A DNA stretch of 64,000 nt, taken from NCBI GenBank assembly GCA_022844135.1, contig JALHMG010000001.1:95021-159020 (forward strand). Reading direction: 5' to 3'. The notes under the pieces were generated by a model. It saw only the letters and a program-made list of their open reading frames with translations. It was not told where the DNA came from and ran no database searches. Position 1 is the stretch's first letter; each line of letters begins with the position of its first letter. Below are positions 52,277 through 60,240 of the stretch, in pieces. This DNA comes from Lysobacterales bacterium. GTDB taxonomy: Bacteria > Pseudomonadota > Gammaproteobacteria > Xanthomonadales > SZUA-5. The position numbers and the translations under genes were made by a program.

Positions 52277-52699
52277 GAGGTTGCCAGGATTCTGGTCGAG
52301 ATCGGACCCGACATGCGTGCGTTTGCGACACCCGACAAACTCGCCGTCTGGTGCGGGGTGAGTCCTGGCAATGAGCAATCAAACAAGCAGCGCAAGAACG
52401 TCAGGACGCTCGTGGCCAATCACCATGTGCGCCGTGCGCTGATCGAGGTGGCGCACGCTGCGGTAAGAACCAAGTGCTACTTCAAAGAAAAGTTTGACGC
52501 TTGGCGCATCCGCTTGGGCTACAAGAAGTCCATCGTGGCTGTTGCGCACAAGATCATCAAAGTCGTGCACATCATGCTGACTCGCAACGTTCCATACCAA
52601 GACAAGAGCGCTGACTTTCAAGCACTCCTGGTTGGACGTAACCGCGCACGATGGATCATGGCGCTGAAAAAACACGGTCACCTGCCAGAGACCGCGTAA
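52277..52699 (+). pseudogene. IS110-family transposase, C-terminal remnant
   Basis: About 140 residues remain, starting after an in-frame TGA. VARILVEIGPDMRAFATPDKLAVWCGVSPG matches the IS116/IS110/IS902 transposase C-terminal domain, with the Ser-Pro-Gly and NKQRKNVRTLVANHHVRRALI region intact. The N-terminal DEDD catalytic half is absent. Ends of the IS were not identified. It marks the left edge of the accessory region. Confidence 0.82.
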
Positions 52700-53129: not shown

Positions 53130-54449
53130 TTATCCGCTGTGCTCAAGTCGCGCAGCAGCCTGGAAGAAGATCTCTTGATACGGGCAGCTCGCTGCCAGCA
53201 GGAAACGGATGCGGCGCACGCTGGTGATGATCGCGGCGCCGATCTTGAAGAGCTTGAGACGGATGGTAGTGCATTGCGCCTTGGCCAATTCGGTGCCCGC
53301 CAGTCCGACCGCGCGAATGGTCTGCATCAGCACGTAGGCAAGCGAGGCCTGTAGAAGTCGAAATTGATTGGCCCACCAGTCGCTGGCGCTGGTGCGGTCG
53401 GCGAATAGGCCCAGTTGCTGTTCCTTGATCCGATTCTCCATCTCGCCGCGCTGGCAGTAGATGTCGTCGTAGATCGTCGCCGCCGCATCGCGACGGTTGG
53501 TGACGACGAAGCGCGGATTGGCGCCCTGAGCGCCGTGCTCTGCACGTATCACGACGCGGCGCTCGCGCTTCCATTTTTTGGCCGCGTATTGGAATTCGCC
53601 GAACTGGCGCTGCTTGATGGCGCTCGCCTCGAAAGCGCTCTCGCACGACGCTTCGGTGGGCGCACCGAGCGTCTGCAGCCGCGAGTTGCGCGCCAGCCCG
53701 ATGACGTAGTCGACGCCGTTTCGCTCGCACCAGGACAGCAGGATCGTGCGACAGAACCCAGAGTCGGCGCGCAAGGTAATGCGCACCGTCGGCCACGCTT
53801 GCCGGAGTCGCTCCACCAGCAGCTTGATGATCGCCGCCGCATGGTGCGCGCCATCGATGTTCGATGGCCGTAGATAGCTCACCAGCAAGGACTCGCCGCA
53901 CATCACATACAGCGGCAGGAAGCAGTAGTGATCGTAGTAGCCATGGAAGAAGCGACCTTCCTGGCGACCGTGCACCGCATCGTCGGTGGCATCCAGATCG
54001 AGCACCAGCTCCGTCGGTGCTTGTCGGTGACTGGCGATGAACCGATCGACCAGCACCTTGTGCAAGGCGACCGCTGTCGGCCTTTCCATCGCGTTCTCGA
54101 AGCGACACAGTGTCGGCGCCGAACTCGCTTCATGGCGCTGACCCATCGCCGTCTGCAACGCGATATCGCGGCGCAGTTGATCGTGATCGTTCAAGTCCTC
54201 GTAGCCGAGCGCAATAGCGAACACGCGCTGCGTCAGTTGCGCCAGACGCGTGTGCTTGATCCGATCAGGCGAGCGCTCGTCCGGCAATACACTCGCCGCC
54301 GCTCGCAGCAACCCAATGCGCTGCTCGGTCTGGCGAAGCAGCAGTGCGCCACCGGCGTCGGAGCTGATCGTTCCGCCGCTGAACGATGCCTCGATCTGGG
54401 CACGCCCGACTTTGCCGAACAGGGTCAATTGCTCGGTAGTATCGTCCAT
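53130..54449 (-). CDS. IS1380-family transposase
   Basis: 439 residues, complete-looking, with GGAGAGG before the ATG. It begins DDTTEQLTLFGKVGRAQIEASF and has the DDE-type transposase blocks FDGGxxxSDAG-like GGTISSDAGGALLL, DLDATDDAVHGRQEG and LRADSGFCR, with a late YCQRGEMENRIKE glutamate block. That set is typical of DDE_Tnp_1_4 / IS1380. Imperfect 11-base inverted repeats at 53033 and 54583 would define an element of about 1.56 kb, but no target duplication was found. Confidence 0.88.
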   Translation of the reverse strand: MDDTTEQLTLFGKVGRAQIEASFSGGTISSDAGGALLLRQTEQRIGLLRAAASVLPDERSPDRIKHTRLAQLTQRVFAIALGYEDLNDHDQLRRDIALQTAMGQRHEASSAPTLCRFENAMERPTAVALHKVLVDRFIASHRQAPTELVLDLDATDDAVHGRQEGRFFHGYYDHYCFLPLYVMCGESLLVSYLRPSNIDGAHHAAAIIKLLVERLRQAWPTVRITLRADSGFCRTILLSWCERNGVDYVIGLARNSRLQTLGAPTEASCESAFEASAIKQRQFGEFQYAAKKWKRERRVVIRAEHGAQGANPRFVVTNRRDAAATIYDDIYCQRGEMENRIKEQQLGLFADRTSASDWWANQFRLLQASLAYVLMQTIRAVGLAGTELAKAQCTTIRLKLFKIGAAIITSVRRIRFLLAASCPYQEIFFQAAARLEHSG

Positions 54450-54600
54450 GGCGAAACCTCTCCTTGTGCTGTTTTTCTTCGCACAAAAACTGACCACAAA
54501 GGGCCAAAGAGGTTTCGTCGCTTCTACCTTCCAGACGCCTATTTCTTCGCGGACAGTCTGTCATACAGGCGCATCGCTCAATCTCCGCGTCACAACGCGC
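54450..54600. other. Right flank of the IS1380 element
   Basis: Noncoding region between the transposase start and the Y1-transposase remnant. A possible terminal repeat is at 54583-54593. Nothing else is evident. Confidence 0.35.
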
Positions 54601-54738
54601 TTATCCAGCGATTTCGATCAGTGATGATGAAAAATTCGGGTTAGCTGCGTTCTGCTCCGCCTCGCGCGCCGGGAACAATTGCACCCAACGCCTGGCAACT
54701 TCCTCATCAGACCAATCTGGCGGCTGGTGGATGTCCGT
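54601..54738 (-). pseudogene. Y1-type (IS200/RAYT-like) transposase remnant
   Basis: An open minus-strand stretch of about 45 residues contains DWSDEEVARRWVQLFPAR followed by QNAANPNFSSSLIE. From memory this resembles the region after the catalytic core start of REP-associated tyrosine transposases. Its end is cut off near 54601 and its start is fused to the GATCTAC repeats. Both catalytic motifs are absent. Confidence 0.5.
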
Positions 54739-54830
54739 GATCTGCTCCGTGATCTGCGGTGATCTACGCCGTCCGTGATCTACGGCGTGATCTACATCCG
54801 GATCTACGTCCGTGATCTACGTTTGATCTA
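54736..54830. repeat. Tandem degenerate GTGATCTAC repeats
   Basis: About eight copies of a 12-15 base unit with core TGATCT(A/G)C follow each other. The array abuts a truncated membrane-protein gene and the Y1 transposase remnant. Confidence 0.8.
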
Positions 54831-54832
54831 AG

Positions 54833-54898
54833 TTACACCTCGGCAATCGCAGCGCAACTTTGGTCTTTCAGATTTCGCGTGAGGCGGCGGAGGATCAT
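54833..54898 (-). pseudogene. Truncated fourth copy of the one-helix membrane paralogue
   Basis: The start overlaps the stop of the 54895-55674 gene as ATGA and reads MILRRLTRNLKDQ before diverging to a stop after 21 residues. The first 13 residues match the paralogues' MILRRLAQNLKEQ. The rest of the gene has been lost at the repeat junction. Confidence 0.75.
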
Positions 54899-55674
54899 GG
54901 CGCCTCTCCACGGTCGTGGTTGTCGTCCGCTCGCAACAGATCCAGCACGGCGCGTGCACTGTCCTGATGGAGGAGGGTCACTGCCGAGTGATCGAGGAAC
55001 GTGGAAGCGTGCTGAGTCAAGGCCGCGCGCGTCGCGGAATCGGCGGCCAGCGTGTCCAGATCGACGTCATTGAAGTAGTCGGCGCGGGTAGCGCCGCGGC
55101 GGGTTTCAGCAACCAGGCCTTCAGCCGTCAATCCGGTATCGAACCGCAAGTGGGCCACCAGATTCGCACGGAAAGGCTCAAGGCGTTCGAGCAGGGTGGC
55201 GTTCAATCGGGTAAAACTGTCGGTGAAGGTGTCGTAATCCCTCAGCGCGTTGCGCAAGCGCTCGTCGCGCAAGATGCCGAGCTGCGCAGCGGACAGCATT
55301 TCGACATAGGTGGCTGCGCGTGGCGGAGCCGGATTCATGCTGGTTACGTTGTTCAGATCGATCAGCATCGCGAATTTGTCGCGGGGCCAACGGCCCAACT
55401 TTTGCCAGCCGTCCAGATCAGCCAATAACTGGTTGGCTGAAGCGAGGTTTCTCTGCCATTTCATCGCGCTTCGGCTTAATCGCGCATCGATTTTTTCGAA
55501 GTCCAGGACAAGGCGGTCAATGACTTCCGCTTCGCGTTGCTGGGATTTTCGTTCCTCATTCCAGTTCGCCACCTGAATACCCAGGAACACACCCAGAACC
55601 AGCAGCACGAACTCGATGCTGATCGCGGTCCAGTTCTGTTCCTTCAGGTTCTGGGCAAGGCGGCGAAGGATCAT
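54895..55674 (-). CDS. One-helix membrane protein, paralogue 3 (DUF6090-like)
   Basis: 259 residues. A cytoplasmic MILRRLAQNLKEQNW leads into one transmembrane helix (IEFVLLVLGVFLGIQVANW) followed by NEE and a helical outer domain with conserved TYVEMLSAAQLGILRDERLR. This resembles the DUF6090 family from memory; function is unknown. The start overlaps the stop of the upstream paralogue (ATGA), so this is a co-translated operon. Confidence 0.65.
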   Translation of the reverse strand: MILRRLAQNLKEQNWTAISIEFVLLVLGVFLGIQVANWNEERKSQQREAEVIDRLVLDFEKIDARLSRSAMKWQRNLASANQLLADLDGWQKLGRWPRDKFAMLIDLNNVTSMNPAPPRAATYVEMLSAAQLGILRDERLRNALRDYDTFTDSFTRLNATLLERLEPFRANLVAHLRFDTGLTAEGLVAETRRGATRADYFNDVDLDTLAADSATRAALTQHASTFLDHSAVTLLHQDSARAVLDLLRADDNHDRGEAP

Positions 55675-56456
55675 TGCGTATCCGTTTTCGGAGAACGGCC
55701 AAGTGCCGTGTCGATGCTGCGCTTGAGTTCGACGCAAGTGGCGCGCTGTATCCGGAGGATGTCGACGATTTGATGCGCCGAGTCCATCCAGAAGTTGAGC
55801 TCCGCCACCAGTTGCGGGTGGTCTGTGTACTTGCGCAGCACGCCCAGCGCGACCGCTTCATCCACGGGAGCTGCGCAGTCCCTGTGTTCCACCACCGCAA
55901 GGTCAAAGCACTGCGTGGCGATGTGGCGACCGATGCGATAGGGCGTCAGCCCGCGCACCAGCCTTCGGTATTCCGGGTTGAACTTCAGGATGTAGTCGGC
56001 GCGCGCAAAGGTACCACTCACAAAATACTCGGTGAGTGCGGTCCGCAATGCGGTGTCTCGCACCAAGCCGAGTTCGCCCGCCGAGCGCATCTCCTGATAG
56101 GTGCTGTCGACCGGCGAGTACGGCAGGATGCGGCTGGCCTGGGCAAATGACAGCACGGTTTGCCAGGCGGATCCGTCGGCCAGCCTGCCATCCTCCGCCC
56201 ATCCGAGCGCGGCCTCGCCATAGGCGATGGAGCGACCGACATAGGCCGAGCGCTTGTCGATGGACGCCAACTCCTGGTCGAGATCGTCGGATAGCCGTTC
56301 CAGGAAATCGTGCGCACGCCGGTCTTCCAGTCGAGCCTCATTCCAGTTCGCTACCTGGATACCCAGGAACACACCCAGCACCAGCAGCACGAACTCGATG
56401 CTGATCGCCGTCCAGTTCTGTTCTTTAAGGTTCTGGGCGAGGCGGCGAAGGATCAT
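55671..56456 (-). CDS. One-helix membrane protein, paralogue 2 (DUF6090-like)
   Basis: 261 residues. The N-terminal 40 residues are identical to paralogue 3 (MILRRLAQNLKEQNW, helix, then QVANWNE), while the external domain diverges strongly, keeping only TYQEMRSAGELGLVRDTALR as a shared block. DNA of the anchor differs at about 7 of 111 bases. Coupled on both sides by ATGA overlaps. Confidence 0.65.
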   Translation of the reverse strand: MILRRLAQNLKEQNWTAISIEFVLLVLGVFLGIQVANWNEARLEDRRAHDFLERLSDDLDQELASIDKRSAYVGRSIAYGEAALGWAEDGRLADGSAWQTVLSFAQASRILPYSPVDSTYQEMRSAGELGLVRDTALRTALTEYFVSGTFARADYILKFNPEYRRLVRGLTPYRIGRHIATQCFDLAVVEHRDCAAPVDEAVALGVLRKYTDHPQLVAELNFWMDSAHQIVDILRIQRATCVELKRSIDTALGRSPKTDTQ

Positions 56457-57241
56457 GGCGAAGCCTCCAGTTCCGCATCGATCAGCGTCACGATCTCGTC
56501 GATCATCTCGATCTGTCGCTCGCGCTGCGGCAGGGAATTGAACGCGAAGCGCCGCAGCATCCTGACCGCCACCCCGAACTCACGATCGCCGCGCATGGCC
56601 GCAAGGTCGTAGGCGATCAGCTCCTCGCGGATGCCGGACAGCTGCGTGTCGTCCGCGACCGTCCGGCTGGTGACGTGCCGCAGCAGGATGGGAATCTGGC
56701 GCACGGCGTTGTCGTTGGTCATCCGCATGAGCTCCAGCATCACGCCGTGGAAGCGATCGTAGTCCGTGAGGCGGTCGCGAAGCCGGGGGTTGGCGATGCG
56801 GCTGAGCTGGCCGTTCGAACGCATTTCCACGTAGGTCGCCGGCAACGGCGGCGGATTCCGGGTCTGCGCTAGCGCATCCAGGGCGCGGGCCATCCCTGCA
56901 TGGTCGATCGGGGTGTCTTGCGAAGCCGCATCGTCGGCGAGCATGCGCGTCATCAGCAGCTCGCCGCCATCGATCGAGTCGCGGTAGAACCCGACGTGCT
57001 GCTGGGTTCTCTCGCGGATGCCGATCAGGTCGATCCGCAGCCGCTCGAGATACTGGGCCTGCAGGGCCGTCTGCTGCCTATCCTCGTTCCAGTTCGCCAC
57101 CTGGATACCGACGAACACGCCGATCACCACGATCGCGAAGTCGATGCCGATCGCGGTCCAGTTCTGCGTGCGGATGTGTTCGGCAACGCGCAGCAGGCGG
57201 GTTGGGCGCGGTGTGATGGCCTCGGCGGTGCTCTCACTCAC
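56453..57241 (-). CDS. One-helix membrane protein, paralogue 1 (DUF6090-like)
   Basis: 262 residues from GTG 57241, with a G-rich ribosome-site candidate upstream; a TTG at 57274 would add 11 residues. The anchor reads HIRTQNWTAIGIDFAIVVIGV and then GIQVANWNEDRQ, related but not identical to the other two. ATYVEMRSNGQLSRIANPRLR aligns with the shared block. It is the first gene of the operon. Confidence 0.65.
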   Translation of the reverse strand: MSESTAEAITPRPTRLLRVAEHIRTQNWTAIGIDFAIVVIGVFVGIQVANWNEDRQQTALQAQYLERLRIDLIGIRERTQQHVGFYRDSIDGGELLMTRMLADDAASQDTPIDHAGMARALDALAQTRNPPPLPATYVEMRSNGQLSRIANPRLRDRLTDYDRFHGVMLELMRMTNDNAVRQIPILLRHVTSRTVADDTQLSGIREELIAYDLAAMRGDREFGVAVRMLRRFAFNSLPQRERQIEMIDEIVTLIDAELEASP

Positions 57242-57351
57242 AGGGTAGCCCCCGTTGTCGTCGTTGCGACACAAATCCAGCGGGCCGTCGATATAGCCCA
57301 GCCACGCGAATCACGTTGCGGCGTTTCAGCGCGGCGAGCAGTTTCACTGGG

Positions 57352-57738
57352 TCAGACCAGTTGTACCAGCTCGGAATAGGCCGCGATCTGGCGATCCCGG
57401 GTCAGCAAGCGCATGGGTTCCTGAATAGCCTGGGCAATGAGCAAGCGGTCGAATGGGTCACTGTGCAGCATCGGCAGTCGCGCCGTGCCACTGGCATGGT
57501 GGACGCTGACATCCAGCCAATGAAACCCGCTTTCCCGGCAGGCGTCGATCAGGGTCTCCGGACCCAGCGGCATCAGCGCCGGGTTCTTGCGGTGCTTGAT
57601 CGCCACCTCCCAGATACTCGCTGCGCTGACGTAGATCTGGTTCTGCGTATCCAGCAGGAAGCCGCTCGCACCGTCGCCCAGCGCAGGGTCCGCGGTGACG
57701 GCCCAGAGCAGGATGTGGGTATCCAGGAGAATGCGCAT
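57352..57738 (-). CDS. PIN-domain toxin (VapC-like)
   Basis: 128 residues. MRILLDTHILLWAV provides the first PIN aspartate, SAASIWEVAIKHR the conserved Glu, and HSDPFDRLLIAQA the central Asp motif, ending in LLTRDRQIAAYSEL. These are the acidic residues of PIN ribonucleases. The start overlaps the antitoxin stop, the usual VapBC-style coupling. Target RNA unknown. Confidence 0.88.
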   Translation of the reverse strand: MRILLDTHILLWAVTADPALGDGASGFLLDTQNQIYVSAASIWEVAIKHRKNPALMPLGPETLIDACRESGFHWLDVSVHHASGTARLPMLHSDPFDRLLIAQAIQEPMRLLTRDRQIAAYSELVQLV

Positions 57739-57971
57739 TACGACGCGCCGAACTCGGCGGCAATCTCGGCATTGTCGGCGTCGATATCGGCAGGAATGAT
57801 GTACTTGCCTTTGAGCACACCGAGTTTCACGGCCTGAGTTTCGATCGGCACCAGGCGGGCTGCAGGCTTGCCGTTGCGGGCAATAATGATGTCGCGCTGC
57901 GCACCGCTGGCGATGTCTTCAACCAGGCGCGACAGATGGGTTTTGGCCTCCAGGATGTTGACGGTGCTCAT
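57738..57971 (-). CDS. Phd/YefM-type antitoxin
   Basis: 77 residues starting MSTVNILEAKTHLSRLVEDI, a standard Phd/YefM DNA-binding N-terminus, followed by DIIIARNGKPAARLVPIE. The C-terminus would bind the toxin. A longer upstream frame is non-homologous. It should autoregulate the pair. Confidence 0.88.
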   Translation of the reverse strand: MSTVNILEAKTHLSRLVEDIASGAQRDIIIARNGKPAARLVPIETQAVKLGVLKGKYIIPADIDADNAEIAAEFGAS

Positions 57972-59563: not shown

Positions 59564-59865
59564 TCATTCCGGGAACTCGCATAAGGCGCATTCTCGCGGC
59601 AAGAAAAGGTACAACCACCAGATTCCTGTCAGTGGCCATCCAGACGGCTTTACGATCGGAGTGATCGGAAGGAAGTCGGTGGCTAACAACGCAAAGCCAA
59701 CCGCCCAGGCTTCCGGGGCGCCAAAAATCCCCAGTGATCGCTCTCACCGAGTGACAAGACTCCGCGCATAACCGATGCCCTTGATTCGTCGCCGATGCCA
59801 TTCCGCTGCTTTGGCTTCGAGCGGCCATGTGCGTTGCATCGGATCAGGCTACCGGCGGATCGTCG
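59564..59865. other. Intergenic sequence with duplicated segment B
   Basis: No gene is supported here. The section 59690-59822 is the second copy of duplicated segment A. It joins directly to the integrase remnant. Confidence 0.5.
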
Positions 59866-60240
59866 CCAGCCTGGAAGTGTGGCCAGCACGATGCGCGCGA
59901 TCTCACCCTGCGTGAGCACATCGGGCAGCGCTTTGACCACCGGCGCCTTGACCATCTCGACCCACGGCCACTCGCGCTGCAGCACGTGACGGCAGAAGAA
60001 CTGCAAACCGCAGCGCTCGATTTTCACGAGGCTCCAGGAGCGCGTGTCGATGAGCCACGCGAAGTAGTTCTTGAAGTCCTCGGCCGACAATCGATCTGTA
60101 CAGCGATCGAAAAACGCCGCCACGCGCCGCACCGCACGGGAATCACCATCGACGGACTGAGGCGCTTTGCCTTGCAGTTTCAAAGCCCTAAGATGTTGCC
60201 CATACAGCGTCTCGAAACGGACCCGCTCCGATGCTTCCAT
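59866..60240 (-). pseudogene. Tyrosine recombinase (XerC/integrase) N-terminal remnant
   Basis: About 125 residues of an N-terminal SAM-like core-binding domain are recognisable: HLRALKLQGKAPQSVDGDSR, FFDRCTDRLSAEDFKNYFAWL and VLTQGEIARIVLATLPGW. The catalytic domain with R-H-R-Y is missing; the frame runs instead into segment B. The style resembles integrases found near IS91-like elements or integrons, by memory. Confidence 0.7.

Follow-up and report, generated by a model that had tools for sequence, protein, structure and literature searches.

Probable recombinational sharing of an N-terminal membrane anchor among translationally coupled DUF6090-type proteins with heads of separate descent

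Three overlapping genes in the stretch of Lysobacterales DNA analyzed here (64,000 nucleotides, hereafter the window, part of a 5.3 Mb assembly in 75 contigs) form a small array of DUF6090-type membrane proteins, two of which carry the same N-terminal anchor on heads that appear to be of separate descent. Taking the evidence as a whole, the account that we consider probable is that of a DUF6090-type array whose anchors are shared by recombination and in which the shared anchor has a proposed role of its own. Recombinational exchange of the anchor, of which the import of heads onto a resident anchor would be one form, is in itself very probable.

The open reading frame coordinates and the sequence reveal three full minus-strand genes, g3, g2 and g1, with an ATGA overlap at both junctions (Table 1), which bears out the layout given in a preliminary description of this DNA. 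Among the genomes compared, one other belongs to the same genus, that of a sister species (G001). The order of g3, g2 and g1 is identical there, and window positions 54771-57355 align to it without gaps at 98.0% identity. The remnant of a fourth copy past g1 is likewise present in the sister species, with three differences and with CTG as its start. The six GTAGATCACG-like repeats crowded within 85 bases beside this dead copy are possibly a mark of the truncating event.

Table 1. Features of the DUF6090-type array, in window positions
Feature	Position	Strand	Remarks
g3	56453..57241	-	operon gene 1; DUF6090-like; GTG start; IDF-type anchor; PF19578 16.6 bits
g2	55671..56456	-	operon gene 2; PF19578 27.0 bits; g1-type anchor; nearest head orthologues IDF-type
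g2 anchor, codons 1-40 (putative recipient tract)	56337..56456	-	sequence comparison, parsimony, trees
g1	54895..55674	-	operon gene 3; DUF6090-like; PF19578 18.2 bits
g1 anchor, codons 1-40 (putative donor-type tract)	55555..55674	-	sequence comparison, parsimony, trees
Remnant of a fourth copy	54833..54898	-	ATGA-overlapping start at 54898; stop at 54833 after 21 codons
GTAGATCACG-like repeat cluster	54736..54820	-	adjoins the remnant; 6 of the window's 9 matches with at most one mismatch

The surroundings of the operon show remains of mobile elements on both sides, namely a piece of an IS110-type transposase (52313-52699) and an integrase N-terminal domain (59683-60240). An IS1380-family transposase (53130-54497) lies past the remnant and the repeats. 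A stretch adjoining it (the two fall within 53130-54700) resembles, by eye, part of a gene that is open in the sister species (L028:489-1475; Y1_Tnp at 19.8 bits, under the cut-off of 23), and the IS1380 insertion may have cut this gene. Upstream of g3, Pfam searches recover a PIN toxin and Phd/YefM antitoxin pair (57352-57971); the sister species is without 308 bases of this region (window 57356-57663), amounting to most of the PIN gene, and keeps the antitoxin gene. A further family member is encoded on another contig of the window's own genome (L029:4947-5753, on contig C4 of G000), and its anchor groups in the anchor tree with g3 and the L062 array.

The affinities of the three proteins lie with the uncharacterised family DUF6090 (PF19578): g2 passes its curated cut-off of 23.5 bits, while g1 and g3 fall under it (E 0.0024 and 0.007, respectively). 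All three match a single family model that we built, and 57 of the 68 members of the g2-like alignment match PF19578 at E <=0.1. The PF19578 model is itself insensitive, having found members in 2 of 299 genomes of the phylum. Within the library searched for DUF6090, its arrays and anchor exchange, we found no paper naming the family or its accession. We also considered DUF4760 (PF15956) as a relative on account of its similar membrane segment: hhalign returned probabilities of 35 and 27 over 44 and 42 columns of the membrane segment only, against an alignment of 10 rows, and the match is without support beyond that segment. In PHROGs, the sole resemblance was to an Rz-like spanin (E 0.05 for g1 and 0.04 for g3), which was judged to be a chance membrane match.

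The anchors of g1 and g2 are identical at 40 of 40 residues and at 113 of 120 bases, with all seven differences being synonymous, and the match stops at codon 41. The preliminary description had counted two identical 40-residue anchors with about 104 of 111 bases in common, which is close to this figure, and it had rightly pointed to very different external domains with one block kept: identity between the g1 and g2 heads is about 17% in the window and 18% in its sister, and the block persists as TYVEMLSAAQLGILRD, TYQEMRSAGELGLVRD and TYVEMRSNGQLSRIAN. The anchor of g3 is of its own type, with 62% amino acid identity to those of g1 and g2. In the sister species the g1 and g2 anchors agree at 118 of 120 bases. 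As each of the differences among the four anchor copies (g1 and g2 of the window and the sister species) is private to one copy, parsimony implies that the g1 and g2 anchors were identical in the common ancestor. Since the species split they have drifted apart in the window, with seven differences against two in the sister species, and show no re-homogenisation; over this period the two anchors changed at a higher rate (9 of 240 bases) than the sequence outside the anchor (21 of 1326; Fisher p 0.037). Divergence along the length of these genes is uneven rather than even.

At identical anchor residues, g1 and g2 use identical codons at 30 of 37 positions in the window, against 14.8 expected from the window's codon usage, and at 35 of 36 in the sister species, against 14.6. 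This null is too lenient because anchors of different genomes share codons too, and as these also exceed the expectation (1.30-fold) we dropped its P values (2e-7 and 1e-13) as a main argument. When compared instead with 903 between-genome pairs whose anchors are at least 85% identical in amino acids (window-sister pairs left out), of which 17 reach a codon identity of 0.80 and none reaches 0.90, the window pair at 0.81 ranks among the highest 2%, and the pair of the sister species, at 0.97, lies above all.

The two parts of g2 point to conflicting histories. Its head is 76, 70 and 69% identical to those of L048 (Dokdonella), L035 (G005) and L050 (Ww132), which carry IDF-type anchors with 65-70% amino acid identity, and the head orthologue of g1, L056, with 58% identity in the head, has an IEF-type anchor 90% identical to that of g1 in amino acids. 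We constructed trees of 65 rows, the anchor tree from 123 columns with few forks resolved and an unsettled bootstrap, and the head tree as a quick reconstruction with long branches, and named the clades for the tree tests after the anchor types had been seen. On this footing, the head tree unites g2 of both species with L048, L035 and L050 (SH-aLRT 99.6). The anchors reject this grouping (AU p 0.003, lnL 74 lower), and the free anchor tree has a group of five comprising g1 and g2 of both species and L056 (98/99). A tree constrained to unite the anchors of g1 and g2 from the window and its sister scored 5.0 log units above the free one. The conflict between the head and anchor trees, along with the grouping of L056, supplies the direction, a g1-type anchor on g2. 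Hence, the trees show that the anchor and head of g2 differ in history, g2 of this lineage having acquired a g1-type anchor instead of the IDF type of its head orthologues before the sampled sister species split. The gene conversion of the anchor suggested in the preliminary description gains support from this conflict, from the identical ancestral anchors and from the recurrence across loci described below.

A recent whole-gene tandem duplication with subsequent very rapid head divergence would be in keeping with the ATGA-coupled tandem layout, but we regard it as scarcely credible: the heads of g1 and g2 are each closer to orthologues elsewhere than to each other, the heads reject a g1+g2 clade (p 8e-119), and pN/pS between the sister species is 0.23, 0.10 and 0.25 for the heads of g1, g2 and g3. 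These values, from 28 changes in all, suggest that selection on the heads is purifying rather than diversifying.

A scan of species genomes recovered 77 loci, representing the best 80 of 419 confirmed candidates from 500 pattern matches; candidates were picked out with anchor patterns and then ordered by their similarity to g2, and both array frequency and head-class sizes are biased by this procedure. Together with the loci already in hand, these best-ranked loci give 319 member reading frames, or 315 without the duplicate loci L049 and L116. The anchor consensus is M[IL]LRRxxxHxRxQNWTAxxI[DE]FxIVVxGVFIGIQVANWNExR, with one glycine present in 308 of 308. Runs of two or more genes (gaps under 200 bases, partial reading frames counted) are found in 49 of 76 loci of this set, the window and its sister included; thus, the co-occurrence of multiple copies on which the preliminary reading hinged is also seen elsewhere. 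The longest run among them, L097 from an Alphaproteobacterium, extends to 14 reading frames, at least one of which is partial. Adjacent junctions with a mapped start (n=195) overlap by 4 bases in 121 cases and by 1 base in 29, with 25 being more than 200 bases apart. The loci span the Gamma- and Alphaproteobacteria together with two Flavobacteriales records, and the distribution is patchy: the family model detects members in 55 of the 151 genomes examined for the order and in 5 of the 185 examined for the class (own genome included). A contrast between lone genes (anchor 0.502, head 0.388) and array members (0.609, 0.194) was set aside for selection bias.

We compared 253 of the 315 members, many of them from MAGs, after dropping those with at most 150 aligned columns or without an anchor start. 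In 110 quartets from 84 locus pairs, with the window-sister pair left out and the quartets non-independent as they share loci, anchors from one locus resemble each other more than the anchors of head orthologues do in 71 of the 84 pairs by bases and 62 by amino acids ("array", here and in the codon comparisons, denotes the same locus and strand). A control head block of similar length was closer within the locus in 0 of 84, as expected, because the remainder of the head had served to choose the orthologues. When genomes are matched at random into disjoint pairs, a mean of 11.6 pairs remain, of which 10.4 show the pattern at the base level and 8.6 at the amino acid level. Earlier sets of quartets gave 201 of 238 in favour by mean identity and, in a second set of 123 that included three window-sister quartets, 100 in favour by bases and 90 by amino acids (8 ties). 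The pattern extends to the 35 quartets whose third-base GC is similar (27 by bases, 24 by amino acids); for the closest orthologues, with heads at 0.6 or above, it is seen in 7 of 10 quartets, with the mean anchor identities within and between loci being about equal (0.802 versus 0.807).

A single position provides a comparable picture. With the window rows left out, genes of one locus that have dissimilar heads share the same residue, D or E, at anchor column 24 in a proportion of 0.836 (476 pairs). Between genomes the proportion is 0.561 where the heads are orthologous (690 pairs) and 0.525 when all pairs are taken (30,533). Moreover, anchors at least 90% identical in bases are found in 35 of 499 same-locus pairs against 14 of 15,000 sampled between-locus pairs, and among the 12 matches listed of the latter three are window-sister pairs. 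At an anchor amino acid identity of 0.85 or more, codon identity is 0.687 in arrays (203 pairs), against 0.567 between genomes (903 pairs) and 0.538 between different contigs of one genome (20 pairs). Codon identity also declines weakly with distance along the array, being 0.662 between neighbours and 0.603 between genes six or more places apart. Taken together, these observations strongly suggest that homogenisation of the anchor, by gene conversion or an equivalent recombination, is recurrent in arrays of this family.

Not all of the similarity is to be ascribed to exchange. The ratio of observed to expected identical codons in the anchor is 1.50 in arrays and 1.30 both between genomes and between contigs of one genome, as against 1.05-1.06 in the heads, and the excess between genomes and contigs implies that part of the similarity stems from constraint. 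We accordingly set aside the array value of 1.50, and the ratio above 1 in 48 of 49 loci, as a main argument, as was done with the codon P values; a comparison of anchor with head codon identity within one pair is also confounded by amino acid composition. Judging from these ratios, a nucleotide- or codon-level constraint evidently acts on the anchor besides exchange. Across anchor columns 4-43 of the 253 members codons are conserved by position from genome to genome, for instance CGC for the arginines of columns 7-8, AAC at column 17 and CAG at column 37, and this positional conservation possibly represents a nucleotide-level signal near the start codon. Constraint alone, with purifying selection on anchor residues and a position-specific codon preference operating without any gene exchange, would explain the 1.30-fold excess and the conservation of the anchor throughout, including its invariant glycine. 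However, we consider it very unlikely in view of the rejection of the g2-orthologue clade by the anchor tree, the higher codon identity in arrays than between genomes or contigs, and the fact that anchors follow the array over head orthology in amino acids too, as seen in the locus pairs and the D/E concordance.

The same products could arise if heads move between genomes and are joined to the resident anchor by recombination inside the anchor, which would resemble conversion. Similar heads do occur in Gamma- and Alphaproteobacteria, no family recurs beside the arrays and the distribution of the family is patchy, all of which agree with such import; yet the same three-gene order is found in both sister species, an observation that is silent on older events, and on balance we consider head import unlikely as the specific route. 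Recombinational exchange of the anchor in the broader sense remains our preferred reading.

We examined AlphaFold2 models of g2 and g1 (pLDDT 94.2 and 91.5). Both have a helix at residues 2-12 and a continuous helix at 15-89 in g2 and 15-93 in g1 that comprises the membrane segment and a stalk. A helical head and a long helix at the C-terminus complete the models, which display the single N-terminal membrane helix and helical remainder of the DUF6090 members seen here. The N-terminal stretch bears on average 3.2 basic and 1.1 acidic residues, against 3.5 and 3.3 after the membrane helix, and two conserved head cysteines are both present in 147 of 253 members and both absent in 96. By the positive-inside rule, and with cysteines as a further established guide to orientation, this weak charge bias and the cysteines point to a periplasmic head with the N-terminus probably inside.

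Searches for relatives of the fold returned little beyond helical bundles. Foldseek with the g2 model gave no match at E 0.001, a sequence search of solved structures gave none at E <=1, and the best VIA-align matches of the g2 model were de novo bundles (Z at most 11.4), that is, generic helical bundles only. The four-helix-bundle periplasmic sensor domains of Tar, Tsr, PilJ and PcaY are similar in having a helical bundle outside a membrane helix; they match g2 with VIA-align Z of 7.2-8.6, which bundles can reach by chance and which lies in a range (below about 13) where helical bundles may share arrangement only. Unlike chemoreceptors and histidine kinases, g1, g2 and g3 are without a second membrane helix or an output domain that we could find: no such Pfam domain was detected in them at E <=1, and the C-terminal helix ends the g2 and g1 models.

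Clustering of the 253 heads at 40% identity yields 93 groups, of which 64 are singletons. As the heads constitute distinct types shared across genomes, their diversity is old. The selection for diverse sensor heads envisaged in the preliminary description thus finds no backing, given these old head types, the pN/pS values reported above and the want of an output domain, a second membrane helix or a recurrent neighbour. With regard to neighbours, no Pfam family (E <=1e-5) was found in more than 4 of 105 flanking ORFs. These were the nearest upstream and downstream ORFs of loci L046-L106, drawn from 183 that had been selected by length (140 aa or more); the scan left out second upstream neighbours, loci L107-L123 and the window, and with so crude a choice partner genes could be missed.

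An alternative functional reading casts the array as a bank of immunity-like proteins in the periplasm, each protective against a different incoming toxin or phage. The distinct and old head types, their variable number and the lack of a recurrent neighbour are compatible with it. Against this, no toxin family recurs beside the arrays, no PADLOC family is matched by more than one of 50 members (best E 0.0076; absence from that library does not exclude a defence role), and a tblastn search with g2 of phage and plasmid collections gave no match at E 0.001. We therefore view such a bank as quite doubtful.

Returning to the shared-anchor reading, we envisage the operon as a small array of single-pass proteins, each predicted to consist of a short N-terminal helix, a membrane helix that continues as a long stalk, and a head that is likewise helical. 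The ATGA coupling would allow co-ordinated translation. The common anchor could serve as a membrane and oligomerisation module, making one assembly open to all members of the array, and the distinct heads might bind different periplasmic partners or ligands. This division of labour, with the anchor as the shared assembly module and the head as the specific module, is proposed tentatively, as one possibility with less than an even claim to being right. A bolder version, which we hold to be unlikely, is that DUF6090 arrays act as a modular plug-board, in which recurrent recombination would keep all the heads of a cell on one interchangeable co-assembling anchor, such that they form a mixed complex and new heads are fitted to the local anchor. 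The sharing of the anchor yields a testable prediction, namely that co-assembly is the reason why members of an array have it in common. The arrays also offer a natural system in which recombination keeps one protein module uniform while the adjoining module is of separate descent.

A conserved N-terminal part joined to a variable C-terminal part, together with recombination, is the plan of polymorphic toxins and of the PE/PPE proteins. The DUF6090 arrays resemble these in both respects, but neither a toxin domain nor a secretion context came to light in the present case, and the heads are old and common to several genomes. Partial gene conversion within an operon is already known. In the mtrA-1/mtrA-2 pair of methanogens, the non-membrane domain is reported to be homogenised by conversion while the membrane part differs (PMC4632066). 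The likeness is that of prokaryotic paralogues in one operon with one part of the gene homogenised and another not; the difference is that the DUF6090 arrays, which comprise many copies, have a homogenised membrane anchor and outer heads that differ. Here conversion appears to recur across a family that no paper in the searched library names, on a membrane anchor, in translationally coupled arrays of up to 14 reading frames, as in L097. The family and the kind of process are both known, but the case is unusual in its clarity and recurrence, with the membrane anchor as the uniform part.
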